This document shows positions 29,876 to 37,824 of a stretch of DNA of 37,824 nt, one piece after another. Location: positions 1-37,824 of the forward strand of contig JAGHTI010000037.1 of NCBI GenBank assembly GCA_018065415.1. The letters run 5' to 3'. Below the pieces are notes generated by a model. It saw only the letters and a list, made by a program, of their open reading frames with translations, had not been told where the DNA came from and did no database searches. The translations under genes were made by a program, and so were the position numbers. This stretch comes from Candidatus Equicola stercoris (GTDB lineage: Bacteria; Bacteroidota; Bacteroidia; Bacteroidales; Bacteroidaceae). Every line of letters starts with the position of its first letter. Position 1 is the stretch's first letter.

Positions 29876-30898
29876 TTACTCCACATCGAAGCATGCAGTG
29901 AAATGTTTGCCCTGTGTAGGAGTGAAGGTGTAGGTTGCTTCCTCGTAGGTTTCGCCTTCCTCATCCTCCCAGTAGTCGAAGACATAGCCACGGTTAGGCG
30001 TTGCCACGATTGTGCAGGAGTTTCCGTTAGGGATGAAACCGCCACCAGTCACGCCACCCATTTTGCTGTCTGGAGTTGAAACGGTAACCACGTGACCCGT
30101 AGTCTGTCCGTTGAGTTCAAACATAGCATAGATGGTGACGTTAGCCTGTCCCATGACAAAGTAGGAGTTAGGATTGACAGAGATAATCTTTCCGTCCTTC
30201 ACCCAACCCACGAAGTGGCTTCCAGTCTTTGCCGAAGCAGAGAACGTAGGCACGTCTCCTGTTTCAAAGACACCGCCACCGCTGACAGTACCTTTGGCTT
30301 CGTCAAGCGACTTGACGGTCAGACGATATTTGCCCACTGGCAAGATTTCGATCTGTCCGCTCTTTGAAGCCTCGTATGCACTTTGAGAGATAGGAATTGT
30401 TGATGATTCCTCGCCAGTCTTGTTCATCTTCACCAGCACCTTCTCCGTGTTGCGAGTATTGACGAGCTGGAAGGTACATTCTTCCTTAAAGTCCTTCATC
30501 TCTGCAGGACGAAGCCAAGAAGCATACGCTTTCTTGATATAAGCCGAAGCCACCCACGTCTCATCCAGAGGACATCCTTTGGAAGACAATGACGGATAGA
30601 ACGTACCCATATCCCCCAGTTCCACACGCTTACCCTGCAAGAGCATACTCTCCAGAGCACCCAACACGTCATCAAGCATTGCGATGATGTCGGCAGTACT
30701 CCACAGGATAGATCCGGTAGTGATACAACTCTTTGCGAAAGCCTTGGTGTCAAGGTCACCAGCACTCTGTGCGTTTGCGTATGCCTTATACACCGGCTCA
30801 GTTATGAGAACACCATGTTCATCATATTGTTTGTGGCCATCTTCATCAAGTACTGCCACATTCACTTTTCTGTATGAAATAGAATAATTTATTGCCAT
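29876..30898 (-). CDS. HU-like DNA-binding protein fused to two InlB B-repeat-like domains
   Basis: N-terminus 'MAINYSISYRKVNV...AYANAQSAGDLDTKAFAK...ELGDMGTFYPSLSSKG' (HU-HIG type); C-terminus has two '(T)VSGGGVFETGDVPTFSASAKTGSHFVGWVKDG' / 'GVTGGGFIPNGNSCTIVATPNRGYVFDYWEDEEG' units. Confidence 0.78.
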   Translation of the reverse strand: MAINYSISYRKVNVAVLDEDGHKQYDEHGVLITEPVYKAYANAQSAGDLDTKAFAKSCITTGSILWSTADIIAMLDDVLGALESMLLQGKRVELGDMGTFYPSLSSKGCPLDETWVASAYIKKAYASWLRPAEMKDFKEECTFQLVNTRNTEKVLVKMNKTGEESSTIPISQSAYEASKSGQIEILPVGKYRLTVKSLDEAKGTVSGGGVFETGDVPTFSASAKTGSHFVGWVKDGKIISVNPNSYFVMGQANVTIYAMFELNGQTTGHVVTVSTPDSKMGGVTGGGFIPNGNSCTIVATPNRGYVFDYWEDEEGETYEEATYTFTPTQGKHFTACFDVE

Positions 30899-31035: not shown

Positions 31036-31503
31036 TTATATTATAATTTCACTTGATGCCTGTTTCGTAGCCTTTTTACCAGCCTTCTTTGCAGCCTGTG
31101 TAGCTACAATAGTGAAACTTGCACCTACGAGAGTTGCCATACGGCTACTCTTTGCCCACTTTACATATACCTTCTTGATGTCAGAGTTTGTATTGAACTG
31201 CTGTGCATCCAGAACGCCATTAGAGGTTAGCCCATGACCGAAGAACCCGAAGTCGCCCAACTGGGAACGCATGGAAATCTTTGCATTTGCCTTCAACGCA
31301 GAGCCGAGAATCACGATCAAAGCCTTGATATTACTTGCACTATACCCTTTGGAGGCACGTGCCACCAGAGCACAGAACTCGTCAAGAGTCATCTTGCCGC
31401 TTGCCTGTGCTTTGGCATACAGTTTGGTCACCTTCTCCCTGACACCAGTGGTGGGATTCTTAACGGTAACCGCACGTTCACTTAAAGAATAATTAATTGC
31501 CAT
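31036..31503 (-). CDS. HU family (HU-HIG-like) DNA-binding protein
   Basis: 'MAINYSLSERAVTVKNP...LYAKAQASGKMTLDEFCALVARASKGYSASNIKALI...ISMRSQLGDFGFFGHGLTSNG'; Lys-rich tail. Confidence 0.8.
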   Translation of the reverse strand: MAINYSLSERAVTVKNPTTGVREKVTKLYAKAQASGKMTLDEFCALVARASKGYSASNIKALIVILGSALKANAKISMRSQLGDFGFFGHGLTSNGVLDAQQFNTNSDIKKVYVKWAKSSRMATLVGASFTIVATQAAKKAGKKATKQASSEIII

Positions 31504-32288: not shown

Positions 32289-32774
32289 TTATTGGTCGCT
32301 GAGAGTTCGGCAAAAAGACGTTATCTTATCAATGGCAAACGAATTTTCATTCTTTCTTTTGGACAATTTCAGAGACACACCACCCTTGTCACAAAAACAC
32401 GAAGGCACAAAACGCTCCAAATTTGCCTTGTTACCCTTCACCTCCAGATACCGACTGAAAACACACTCCAGCATCGTCCTCAACTGCTGTTTGGTACCAA
32501 CCCAGCAAATCCTCTCTGCGGAACACGTTAAATCAACATCGACACCCATGAGATACACAAAATGTTCCATGGAAGTATTGGCTATCAAATCCTCCTCACA
32601 CAAAAACTCATACAGCTTCTGCGCCTCCTCACGTTTCAGCCCCATCGGCATACGCTCTCGATTCGGAACATCTGGTTTCTTCCTTTCACCAAAATTCAAC
32701 ACGCCACCATTATTTACATTGATTGTCTGCTGCTCAATGTAGTTACCATGAACAATAATACTACCTCTCTCCAT
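32289..32774 (-). CDS. Uncharacterised protein with N-terminal 'IIVHGNYIEQQTINVNNGGVLNFG' segment
   Basis: ORF read from the internal ATG at 32774 (ORF track starts at 32780); flanked by a terminator; overlaps the upstream ORF. Confidence 0.65.
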   Translation of the reverse strand: MERGSIIVHGNYIEQQTINVNNGGVLNFGERKKPDVPNRERMPMGLKREEAQKLYEFLCEEDLIANTSMEHFVYLMGVDVDLTCSAERICWVGTKQQLRTMLECVFSRYLEVKGNKANLERFVPSCFCDKGGVSLKLSKRKNENSFAIDKITSFCRTLSDQ

Positions 32775-33087
32775 ATACATTATTATTAACTATTTGATTA
32801 TTGATATAGTCACCGTTTATCTCCGTAGAGCTGACAGTATATGACTCTTTCATCCCCAACCGTTGAAAACGCTCATATTCATCCGTCGGCAGCTTACGGA
32901 TATCGAACACCTTTGCCAGAAAGTCCTTTATCATCAGCACCCTGTCGTTGAGGTTCGGCGGATACTGTTCCAACACAGCCACAAAGTCCGACAACGAGTG
33001 CAACTCTTGTCCTCCAAGAGCCACCCCCATCATCAGGACATCATCCTGTCCCAACGTGTCAGCCGTTGTGTTTATGTTTTTAGTCAT
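32761..33087 (-). CDS. Small uncharacterised protein with C-terminal 'TEINGDYINNQIVNNNVYGER' segment
   Basis: ORF track runs to 33186; ATG at 33087 (MTKNINTTADTLGQDD...) preferred. Confidence 0.65.
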   Translation of the reverse strand: MTKNINTTADTLGQDDVLMMGVALGGQELHSLSDFVAVLEQYPPNLNDRVLMIKDFLAKVFDIRKLPTDEYERFQRLGMKESYTVSSTEINGDYINNQIVNNNVYGER

Positions 33088-33245
33088 CCTGTTATATTTT
33101 TCTTCCCCACTATGGGCAAAGTTATTGTTTTCAGTTATAGTAGGCCATATATACAGCTCACGCATAGATATTACGGCCCATTTCATCGCATAATCTACTC
33201 GTACTTCTTCTCAATCTTCAAAGGTTAAAATACGAAGTCCCTCTG

Positions 33246-33296
33246 ATTTATCTCCCATGTGTTTTTCACATATTATTATATGTATGGAAGATAAAT
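33246..33296. promoter_or_regulatory. Inverted repeat directly downstream of a promoter box (operator or 5'-UTR structure)
   Basis: ATTTATCTCCCAT (33246-33258) / ATGGAAGATAAAT (33284-33296), 12 of 13 complementary; inner ACATAT-tatt-ATATGT. Confidence 0.6.
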
Positions 33297-33328
33297 GCAA
33301 AGATAAGAAAATCAAATCAGTTCTGCAA
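33297..33328 (-). promoter_or_regulatory. Bacteroidota-type promoter for the 33087/33186 small-ORF unit
   Basis: Minus strand: TTG (33328-33326), N20, TATCTTTGC (33305-33297). Confidence 0.6.
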
Positions 33329-33376
33329 TAGTTATTAGGAAAAAATTAGTGCAGATTATCATTTTTTAATAAATCA

Positions 33377-36300
33377 TTACACTGTGCCGATGTCCTGATT
33401 TTCTGCCCACTGTTCACATTGCTTCAGCACTATGTTCATCGCGCCTTCTGTTTCTTCTGGTGGGTATTGGTATTTCTTTAACAAACGCTTTACCAACCTA
33501 CGCATATTGGCACGTTCTGCCTCTCTGCGGTTCCAGTCTATGGTGCGGTTTTTTCGAAGCATGTCTGTCAGATCTTTAGTCATTGCCACCAACTGGTCAT
33601 TTGAATAGAAGTCCTTCACAGCCTGTGGTCGGGTCAGGGCATCATAGAATGCTTTTTCATCATTGGAGAGTCCCAAATCGTTACCCTGCTGTTCTGCATC
33701 CATCATCTCCTGTGCCAGTTTCAGCAGTTCTTGGATAACTTCCTCATTTGTCAGCAATCCGTTTACATAACGGTTCAGCGTCTCGCTGAATCTGTTGCTG
33801 AACAGTTCTCCTGTCACAATGTTTGAACGAATCATTGTACGTACACGTTCTCGCAACAGGTCTTCCAACAACTTTGCGGCAAGGTTTTTTTCCTTCATCT
33901 TCCTGACCTCTTCCATAAACTTTTCATCGAAGAGTGAGAACTCTGTCTGCTCATCAAAGATGTTGACTACGCCATCGCTGCTTACGCTTTGTTCAATGAG
34001 AGCCACGATACGCTTGTTTATCTCTACCTTCGATATCTTGTTTGTATTCTGCAGACGAATTATCAAGATGCGTACAGACTCCATGAAACTTACCTCATAA
34101 CGCTCTTCTTCCACGAGAAGTGAGCGACAAAGGGTTACAGCCTGACGGAGCATGAAAGCATTTTTTGTGAACTCCTTGCAGTCTTCCGCTTTGGCTGGTG
34201 CCATCAAGAAGTTTACAGCACCCTTTATCAACATCGCACGCTCCGAAGGTGAACCATGATGGAATTTGCTGTAGTCATAGCCATGAAGCAAGTCTCGGCA
34301 TATCTCCTGTTTCTCTTTGAACTCCGAATATGCCCTCTCCTTGATGTCGTTATTGCCGTAGTTGTCACGGTCTCGTTTGGTATAGCGTTTCATTGCCTCT
34401 TTCAATGCTGAGGCAATACCCACATAGTCCACAATCAACCCTCCTGCCTTCTCTGGAAAGACTCTGTTCACGCGGGCAATGGCTTGCATCAGGTTGTGGT
34501 CCTTCATTGGCTTATATACATACATCGTTGCCAGTGACGGAACATCAAAACCTGTCAGCCACATATCCACGACAATGGCTATCTTCATCTCGTCGTCCTC
34601 GTCCTTGAACTTTTTGGCAAGTTCTTTCTTGTAGGCTTTACTTCCGATGATTTCTGCCCATTCCTCCGGATCTTGGTTCCCTCCTGTCATCACCACTTTA
34701 ACCTTTTCCGTCCAGTCAGGGCGAAGTTCAAGGATGCGGGTGTATATCTTCATGGCTATCGGTCGGGAGTATGCCACAATCATAGCCTTTCCACAACAGA
34801 TATGCTGACGGTTTTCTTCATAATGCGTGATGATGTCTGCCACAAGGTCGTTGACTGTCGCATCGTTGCCAAGCAGTGAGTCCATGTGCGACATTACCTT
34901 CTTGTTCTCTTCAAGGTCTGCTTCCGATGCTCCTTCTGCCCTCAACTTGTCATACTCTGCATCAATCTGGGCAAGTATCTCATCGTTGAGTTTCAGTTTT
35001 ATCACGCGGCTTTCGTAATAGACTGGGCGTGTTGCGCCATCCTTTACCGCCTGCGTCATGTCATACACGTCAATGATGTCACCGAACACTTCTGCCGTAT
35101 CTCTGTCTTTGTCTGATATTGGAGTTCCTGTAAAACCAATATATGAAGCATGAGGCAGTGAGTTTCGTATCTTTCGTGCAGCACCGATATGTGTATTTCC
35201 TTCTGTGTCTATCTTTTCTTCCATGCCATACTGACCGCGATGTGCCTCATCGGTCATCACGATGATGTTGCGGCGGTCGGAAAGTGCACCGTCCCAGTCA
35301 TCGAATTTCTGCATGGTGGTGAAGATGATGCCTCCGGAATTTCTGTTCTTCAGCATTGCCTTCAGAGATGTGTCATCATTTTCTGCATCGCGGCTTGTGC
35401 ATTGCACTGCACGCTGACGGAGGAAATCGACCGTGCGAGAAAACTGACCGTACAACTGTTCATCGAGGTCGTTACGGTCTGTAATAACCACTATGGTAGG
35501 GTTCATCATCTGTATCTTTGGATGATGAGCCAAGAACACCATCGACAGGCTCTTGCCAGAGCCTTGTGTATGCCAGAACACACCAATCTTGCCATCGCCT
35601 TTCACAGCCTCCTCTGCTCTCGTGGCGGCCTTCTCCACAGCGTAGTACTGATGATAGCCTGCGAGAATCTTTGCATAACTGCCTTCGCGGACATCAAACA
35701 GTATGTAGTTCTTCAGAAGGTTTAGCAGTACTTTCGGGGTGAATATGGATTTGAAGGCCACATCATAGTCTGCCACCTCTCCGGTAGGCTGTTTCCATTC
35801 CATGTAGCGGTCTTCCTTGGCAGTGACGGTTCCTACTTTTGTCTGTGCCATGTCGCTCATCACATTGAAGGCATTGTAAATAAATAACGATGGAATGGAC
35901 TTCTGGTAGTTGCGCAGTTGCAGATATGCTTCGCTGGCATCTGTCTCCTCTCTTGACGGAGATTTCAACTCTATCACCACCAGAGGCAGACCATTCACGA
36001 ACACCACAATGTCCGGTCGCTTGGTATCATGCTCCTGCACCGTAAACTGATTCACCACCAAGAAATCGTTTTTCTCAGGATGCTCAAAGTCTATAAGGTT
36101 TACAACCATTGTCTTCTCGCGCGACTGTTGTTCCACGCGTTCATTGAATCTGCCGTAGTGTGACATGGCTTCGTGTATCATGTCCGCACCTTCGTTCTTT
36201 GGATTGGAAGATGCGTGCTGTGTGAACGTCACCTCAATGCCATATTGCATCATCTGCGTGAACTTGAAGTTGCACTCATAGAGCGAAGACCCCTCTATCT

Positions 36301-36505
36301 GATGCAGTTTCCTGATGGCATCATCAATGGCATCACGGGGAATAGACGGATTGATGCGGCACAGAGATTCCCGCAGCACATCGTCCAATACAGGATTTGC
36401 ATAATCACGCTCTATGTCAGGACCGTACTCATAACGGAACTGATTACCTTCAAGGCTCTGAAACAATTCGATGAGAGCCTGCTCGTAGGTGTCTTCTGTA
36501 AACAT
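33377..36505 (-). CDS. hsdR: Type I restriction endonuclease subunit R
   Basis: 1042 aa; 'FEHPEKNDFLVVNQFTV', 'PDIVVFVNGLPLVVIELKSP', 'FWHTQGSGKSLSMVFLA', 'TDEAHRGQYG', 'GFTGTPI'. Confidence 0.95.
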   Translation of the reverse strand: MFTEDTYEQALIELFQSLEGNQFRYEYGPDIERDYANPVLDDVLRESLCRINPSIPRDAIDDAIRKLHQIEGSSLYECNFKFTQMMQYGIEVTFTQHASSNPKNEGADMIHEAMSHYGRFNERVEQQSREKTMVVNLIDFEHPEKNDFLVVNQFTVQEHDTKRPDIVVFVNGLPLVVIELKSPSREETDASEAYLQLRNYQKSIPSLFIYNAFNVMSDMAQTKVGTVTAKEDRYMEWKQPTGEVADYDVAFKSIFTPKVLLNLLKNYILFDVREGSYAKILAGYHQYYAVEKAATRAEEAVKGDGKIGVFWHTQGSGKSLSMVFLAHHPKIQMMNPTIVVITDRNDLDEQLYGQFSRTVDFLRQRAVQCTSRDAENDDTSLKAMLKNRNSGGIIFTTMQKFDDWDGALSDRRNIIVMTDEAHRGQYGMEEKIDTEGNTHIGAARKIRNSLPHASYIGFTGTPISDKDRDTAEVFGDIIDVYDMTQAVKDGATRPVYYESRVIKLKLNDEILAQIDAEYDKLRAEGASEADLEENKKVMSHMDSLLGNDATVNDLVADIITHYEENRQHICCGKAMIVAYSRPIAMKIYTRILELRPDWTEKVKVVMTGGNQDPEEWAEIIGSKAYKKELAKKFKDEDDEMKIAIVVDMWLTGFDVPSLATMYVYKPMKDHNLMQAIARVNRVFPEKAGGLIVDYVGIASALKEAMKRYTKRDRDNYGNNDIKERAYSEFKEKQEICRDLLHGYDYSKFHHGSPSERAMLIKGAVNFLMAPAKAEDCKEFTKNAFMLRQAVTLCRSLLVEEERYEVSFMESVRILIIRLQNTNKISKVEINKRIVALIEQSVSSDGVVNIFDEQTEFSLFDEKFMEEVRKMKEKNLAAKLLEDLLRERVRTMIRSNIVTGELFSNRFSETLNRYVNGLLTNEEVIQELLKLAQEMMDAEQQGNDLGLSNDEKAFYDALTRPQAVKDFYSNDQLVAMTKDLTDMLRKNRTIDWNRREAERANMRRLVKRLLKKYQYPPEETEGAMNIVLKQCEQWAENQDIGTV

Positions 36506-37459: not shown

Positions 37460-37824
37460 TCATATTTTTATCTCACCAGACATCAATTTTGGAAGAAGCG
37501 TATCACGGAGAGAGGAGAGATGGGAGGATTCTAATCGTGTATTGATTATTTTGTCAATAACATCATTCATAAAATTACTCATCCAGTTCAGCATATTATT
37601 GTCAGGAATCGTCACTAAAGCCTTTTCTAAATCGCTTCTCTTAATATGTCCCATTGTTACAGCCTTATCTTTTGCTATTCTAATAAATTCATCCAAATGG
37701 AATTTCGTCCACATTAGATAGATCCATTTTGGATAATTCTCTGATGTAACTTTGAATAGATGCTGATTAAGACCGCAAATACCACCACACCAAATATCAA
37801 CAAGGAGAGTTCCAGACCATGAAA
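37460..37824 (-). CDS. hsdS: Type I restriction specificity subunit S, C-terminal part (truncated at window edge)
   Basis: The minus frame stays open to the window edge: SWSGTLLVDIWCGGICGLNQHLFKVTSENYPKWIYLMWTKFHLDEF...LRDTLLPKLMSGEIKI*. Confidence 0.88.
   Translation of the reverse strand, partial: SWSGTLLVDIWCGGICGLNQHLFKVTSENYPKWIYLMWTKFHLDEFIRIAKDKAVTMGHIKRSDLEKALVTIPDNNMLNWMSNFMNDVIDKIINTRLESSHLSSLRDTLLPKLMSGEIKI

Follow-up and report, generated by a model that had tools for sequence, protein, structure and literature searches.

A 37,824-nucleotide stretch of DNA from Candidatus Equicola stercoris (hereafter, the window) carries two small, overlapping genes beside the restriction gene hsdR, and an earlier note on this DNA pointed out that the first protein ends, and the second begins, with a similar short peptide. 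Why would two neighboring proteins carry matched segments at their facing ends, and does this arrangement recur elsewhere? We favor, with somewhat better than even confidence, the explanation that the two genes, A and B, form a translation-coupled module in which homotypic beta tags, as predicted from sequence, would allow each A protein to bind its own B protein and not those of other tag classes.

Both genes lie on the minus strand and overlap by 14 to 20 nucleotides, with the peptides that the earlier note had quoted. Gene A (32761..33186) codes for a protein of 141 amino acids that belongs to no named family, with a variable body (roughly 90 to 120 amino acids in the window) and a C-terminal tag, INGDYINNQIVNNNVYGER (32764..32820, minus strand); its C-terminal end reads ...STEINGDYINNQIVNNNVYGER. 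A second in-frame ATG at 33087 would give 108 amino acids. Gene B (32289..32774) codes for an adaptor-like protein of 161 amino acids that starts with MERGS, or of 163 amino acids starting with MYMERGS if the alternative start at 32780 is used. Its N-terminus reads MERGSIIVHGNYIEQQTINVNNGGVLNFG and includes the tag IIVHGNYIEQQTINVNNGGVLNFG (32688..32759, minus strand), which is followed by a conserved and mostly helical C-terminal domain (residues 41-160; 32295..32654, minus strand). Depending on the start of B, the overlap is 14 nucleotides (32761..32774, minus strand, read directly from the sequence) or 20 nucleotides, and translation of the two genes is likely to be coupled through the 14-nucleotide overlap.

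The interval first assigned to the pair, 32289-33328, extends at its upper end past the first codon of A and takes in TATCTTTG (33298-33305), part of a promoter-like site that was recognized by eye (33298..33329, minus strand; ATTG, 20 nucleotides, then TATCTTTG). The site resembles the Bacteroidota-type consensus TTTG/TAnnTTTG with three of four consensus matches at -33, and a strict pattern search does not report it. This candidate promoter upstream of A suggests that A and B are transcribed apart from hsdR.

Neither protein matches a family in Pfam, NCBIfam or PADLOC, and matches to PHROG are at chance level. A search of 200 genomes of the genus found no relatives of the A body in the window, only weak, chance-level matches, and a single-sequence AlphaFold model of A is poor (mean pLDDT 47). 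The AlphaFold model of B, built from 14 sequences, is confident for residues 41-160; it predicts disorder for the tag region, where pLDDT is <50 throughout residues 1-37 and two short strands are placed. We could not name the C-terminal domain of B through known families, because comparisons with Pfam, PDB sequences, PDB folds and viral folds (BFVD) were all empty. Structure prediction, as proposed in the earlier note, thus yielded a confident domain in B, but a poor model of A and no fold match for B. The suspicion that the two-gene module is undescribed held up: in the literature searched, we found no description of it, or of diverse restriction-associated proteins tied to one adaptor.

In the same 200 genomes, searches with B recovered B itself, seven clear relatives and one weaker one. 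At E<=0.001, a profile of B matched 25 of 398 genomes of the genus (about 6% of Prevotella-genus genomes); in approximately 17 of those 25 the match was strong and full-length. A few further relatives turned up in other genera of the same family. The named records (16 loci, from a contig scan with a narrower B alignment) belong to Prevotella/Xylanibacter, mostly rumen isolates and metagenome-assembled genomes (MAGs), and to one Bacteroidaceae MAG. A role as phage or plasmid cargo was considered and rejected, because B relatives were absent from the viral contigs, plasmids and phages of IMG/VR, PLSDB and INPHARED at the sensitivity used.

In the window, the A tail (INGDYINNQIVNNN..VYGER) aligns with the B head (VHGNYIEQQTINVN..NFGER) with a BLOSUM62 score of 39 (composition-shuffle p = 0.0033). 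Of 21 B heads compared, the 20 others score at most 28 with this tail; when representatives of the tag classes were compared later, its nearest noncognate head was that of locus L111, at 36. As a control, 115 other adjacent same-strand gene pairs from the same loci have a mean score of 19.9 (sd 4.5, max 36). On its own, the tag pair in the window is suggestive. The match recurs across relatives far beyond chance, and the original observation of a shared segment at facing ends is thereby borne out. The literal string 'G-[DN]-Y-I-x-x-Q' is specific to the window locus; what is conserved elsewhere is the match between the two tags and not this sequence.

At nearly every locus, the gene directly upstream of B codes for a protein whose tail tag resembles the head of its own B. 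Across loci, these upstream proteins are unrelated or distantly related, and the tag sequence varies. Examples (A tail and B head) are RIGQVVLEQNNYG and GIGQVVLEQNNTF, NIFFTGDHATYNEN and RIIMTGDEATYIER, NMIEKGANVAYKK and NMFVESGAKVVYQE, AEQVVVSNHGNVNHNN and AQIIVNNESGGTVINHN, and NNYGTYVAEGGTQVN and NYGNLFEAGATQIN. The A bodies include a HIRAN-like domain (a weak Pfam match), a HARE-HTH-like domain (by eye), coiled coils, an EcoRII nuclease and further, unassigned bodies. Among sampled adjacent pairs, no A protein has a clear membrane helix (no 19-residue hydrophobic window above 1.6).

For 21 loci, the cognate tail/head scores sum to 868, compared with a mean of 571 (sd 43) when partners are permuted, and the cognate sum was never attained in 200,000 permutations. 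The tags fall into about ten sequence classes and covary with their partners; with one representative per class, cognate pairs average 47.9 and noncognate pairs 22.5 (p = 5e-6). Inside classes, pair-specific matching is weak or absent (p = 0.009 in the largest class, not significant in three small ones), so specificity is at the level of the class. The pair at L073, with a score of 24, is not convincing. The B-type proteins of L062 and L069, which were reached via their tags, have other C-terminal domains in the same arrangement, and searches with them revealed new tag classes, among them GDYVVTKHIANEVNGVAKGATGINV with GDLVIEKHVDYEVNNVEAGGIGIQIN and QLVIGNGTQNIT with QLVVGDSTQTIE. In this second set (other B-type domains plus L111), cognate matching is again significant (p = 3e-4, with the wrong ORF taken as A in one case).

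An explanation by chance, by low-complexity Asn/Gly composition or by a DNA-level repeat is very improbable. The tags are indeed rich in Asn and Gly, but the shuffles, the partner permutations, the 115-pair control and a codon test exclude such an origin. In the codon test, 74 of 180 identical tag residues use the same codon, compared with 73.4 expected from codon usage. We therefore rejected a DNA repeat or recombination site, and selection acts on the peptide. Common ancestry of A and B was also rejected: the A bodies belong to several families, none of which showed similarity to the B domain, and only the tags match.

Tags have been exchanged between related bodies. The A bodies of L114 and L122 are homologous (29% over 369 residues, E 2e-39), whereas their tags, VMEQNN and IIQIGDSPQY, differ, and each matches its own B. 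Likewise, the A bodies of L003 and L009 are homologous in their N-terminal parts (46% over 69 residues) and carry the tags VVLEQNN and VVVSNHGNVN, each of which matches its own B (scores of 42 and 37 for the cognate pairs, and of 18 and 20 when partners are crossed). Natural fusions also occur. L141 is a single 271-amino-acid ORF consisting of an A body of the L052 coiled-coil type, one tag and a B-type domain; its N-terminal part is 33% identical to the L052 A protein (E 2e-15). A second fused A-B ORF, at L140, has a membrane segment recognized by eye. Fusion of A and B bodies around one tag is expected if tags normally join the two proteins. The idea in the earlier note that matched ends might let the proteins associate is thus favored by covariation over about ten classes and by two fusions, and we presume that A and B bind physically.

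At L118 (1802-4538), the tag of B is shared by two different proteins encoded upstream (TVNNYGNIFENGATQINNQ, TFNNYGTYVAEGGTQVNYLKK), and one B may therefore serve several partners. Homologues that occur singly, which the earlier note had named as evidence against the module, are not a feature of the B family of the window. They are common in a distant B-like family (GLWW-type), most members of which were found without an adjacent A. Its representatives at L127, L129-L133 and L135-L139 mostly fit this description and have different N-terminal segments rich in Asn and Tyr, for example ITINYYNSVGQRIDSVTTQNFS; partners of these solitary proteins, if any, would be encoded elsewhere.

How might the tags join the proteins? 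Asn, Gln and Gly make up 34% of tag residues, compared with 13% otherwise, and Pro makes up 0.6%, compared with 3.7%, with tag boundaries set by eye. The tags are also rich in Val, Ile and Tyr and poor in Lys and Leu; the L057 class contains prolines. This composition is compatible with amyloid formation. In the largest class (MTGDEAQY), B carries the motif twice. Like tags on both sides, the doubled motif in one B class and the tag composition favor homotypic beta stacking. The tags could instead be ordinary docking peptides, in which the A tail adds a strand to the B head or folds with it without amyloid, and A and B would then be a constitutive two-subunit protein (a stable 1:1 complex or small oligomer). 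The same tail/head covariation fits this arrangement, and a permanent complex would explain the one-tag fusions no less well than a switch would. We consider it rather unlikely, because docking partners are usually complementary and not alike, and here the same motif is on both sides and occurs twice in some B proteins, as for homotypic stacking.

The window pair lies beside a type I restriction-modification (R-M) locus. All of its genes within the window are on the minus strand: hsdR (33377..36505), the neighbor of A; a gene for a four-helix-bundle-suffix protein (TIGR04258; 36646..37455), between hsdS and hsdR; and the C-terminal part of a probable HsdS specificity subunit (37460..37822), assigned by sequence with no profile and cut by the contig end. 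The window contains no hsdM gene. Four-helix-bundle proteins that are alike by eye are also encoded at L117 (5838-6584) and at L124 (minus strand, before A); at these three loci, the gene is either flanked by R-M genes or placed immediately ahead of the pair.

Across the loci, 9 of 24 have an R-M match in the 6 kb upstream, compared with 2 of 40 control stretches (p = 0.0015), an upper estimate because the query proteins were taken from the case loci, and both matching control stretches are halves of one region. Besides the type I locus of the window, R-M systems near the pairs include a full type I system near L117, type III near L104, type IIG near L125, C5-methyltransferase systems near L110 (with a NotI-like enzyme) and L113, and GmrSD near L096 and L114. 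At L113 (5815-7488, minus strand) and L116, a C5 methyltransferase gene is followed by a gene for a 557-amino-acid protein without a Pfam or PADLOC match, which is a candidate restriction enzyme.

At L111, the A protein itself is an EcoRII-type endonuclease (EcoRII-C, E 2e-61; EcoRII-N, E 3e-28) whose gene follows a C5 methyltransferase gene. Of its 448 residues, EcoRII homology reaches as far as residue 381, and the extra 67-residue tail carries the tag; this tail, ITNNFHGKVDQVVNNKG, scores 59 with ITNNFYNVVNKVVNNYG of its own B, and the A stop codon is 292 nucleotides ahead of B. The link to restriction drawn in the earlier note is therefore partly upheld by the 9 loci and by this nuclease, but it is not general, as many A-B loci are without a recognizable R-M neighbor. 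The neighborhood survey that it called for gave the same divided answer: B has a matched upstream A at nearly all loci, and R-M genes accompany only part of them.

Two small overlapping genes beside defense genes could also be a toxin-antitoxin-like pair that is joined by the tags. We regard this as quite improbable, because no match to a toxin or antitoxin family was found in Pfam, NCBIfam or PADLOC, and the A bodies vary without a common toxin-like domain.

A different context is evident downstream. At most of the sampled loci with enough downstream sequence, among L096-L108 and L112-L125, the genes after B code for a Rha/KilAC-type regulator, a protein of 90 to 130 amino acids, a DUF3987 protein (approximately 750 to 860 amino acids) and an amidase or M15-like protein. 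Distant relatives of the C-terminal domain of B at L058, L059, L075, L077 and L088 (E 1e-6 to 1e-12), which have no Pfam name, are encoded directly after tyrosine integrases (integrases recognized by eye). One genome contains two identical-looking copies of A-B with its downstream cluster (L106 and L107, approximately 5.9 kb) that differ in flanks on both sides, which suggests mobility of the block or an assembly effect.

The integrase-adjacent relatives and the Rha/KilAC-DUF3987-amidase cluster make a role in a mobile element possible: the C-terminal domain of B would be an element regulator, R-M genes would be passenger cargo, and A and B would control element genes or protect the element. 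We place this reading on the unlikely side. The window has no such cluster (two HU-HIG proteins are encoded there, at 31036-31503 and 29876-30898), one A is a restriction nuclease, and the searched viral contigs, plasmids and phages yielded no relatives. Moreover, the mobile-element reading concerns the purpose of the pair and does not conflict with coupling through tags.

Returning to tag-coupled pairing, we propose the following mechanism. A would present a variable body with a C-terminal tag of roughly 14-28 residues, and B a matching N-terminal tag with a small conserved domain. Like tag would pair with like, such that an A protein would bind the B encoded with it but no B from a different class of tags. 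B would probably be a constant adaptor or regulator, by which the tagged protein associated with restriction is collected or controlled. We expect the tags to form a short beta-arch or an amyloid-like stack, following the logic of bacterial amyloid signaling pairs. Regulation of A by B and a role in defense are what we infer from this arrangement; the module is a previously undescribed and probably defensive one. A review (PMC7889193) asks whether bacteria have signaling amyloids in NLR-independent pathways. It is conceivable, though somewhat doubtful, that A-B is a case of such signaling, in unicellular bacteria, in which class-specific, self-templating tags would recruit restriction enzymes and other restriction-associated proteins to a small adaptor, or release them from it, and the tag classes would insulate coexisting modules from each other. 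For this question, the module offers about ten tag classes with native partners, as well as natural tag swaps and fusions; if correct, the proposal describes a way to tie diverse restriction-associated proteins to one adaptor.

Known systems resemble the A-B module in part. As regards type I R-M (HsdRMS), the window pair adjoins hsdR and the L117 pair adjoins a full system, but neither A nor B was recognized as an Hsd subunit in Pfam, NCBIfam or PADLOC. Like EcoRII (PDB 1na6), the L111 A protein has EcoRII-N and EcoRII-C domains and follows a C5 methyltransferase; it differs in its tagged tail and in the downstream B gene. Effector-associated domains (PMC8195603) are also homotypic modules at protein termini, by which a range of effectors is coupled to a core protein. 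However, they are folded and mostly alpha-helical, whereas the A-B tags are short and predicted to be disordered or beta; a folded, shared terminal adaptor domain was not found in A-B. In HET-S/NWD2, HELLP/PNT1 and metazoan RHIM systems, matched short motifs likewise link an effector to its partner, and in HET-S one motif on one side faces two on the other, as in the MTGDEAQY class. A-B differs in having no receptor NTPase, and the fungal HET-s/PP/sigma Pfam models match neither ten tagged A and B-type proteins nor A and B of the window.

The closest likeness is to the BASS gene pairs (Dyrka 2020, as described in PMC7889193 and PMC8086366), which are Bell/NLR pairs with matched terminal motifs; the N-terminal motif is on the NLR, and the effector is a Bell domain with a transmembrane helix or, less often, CHAT or TIR. 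In both systems, two genes adjoin or overlap, the first product ends in a motif that resembles one at the start of the second, the motifs form several families and are beta-prone in composition, and some proteins carry the motif twice. In contrast, B is a protein of 161 amino acids without an NLR (NB-ARC/NACHT plus repeats) and without any Pfam, NCBIfam or PADLOC family; A bodies are not one family and include restriction nucleases; no Bell transmembrane effector was seen by the hydrophobic-window criterion in sampled pairs, and no CHAT or TIR domain in the A proteins scanned. The hosts differ as well, being mainly filamentous actinobacteria and cyanobacteria for BASS and unicellular Bacteroidota for A-B. 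With no NLR and no Bell domain, we do not file A-B as BASS; it differs from these amyloid signaling pairs, though the logic is alike.
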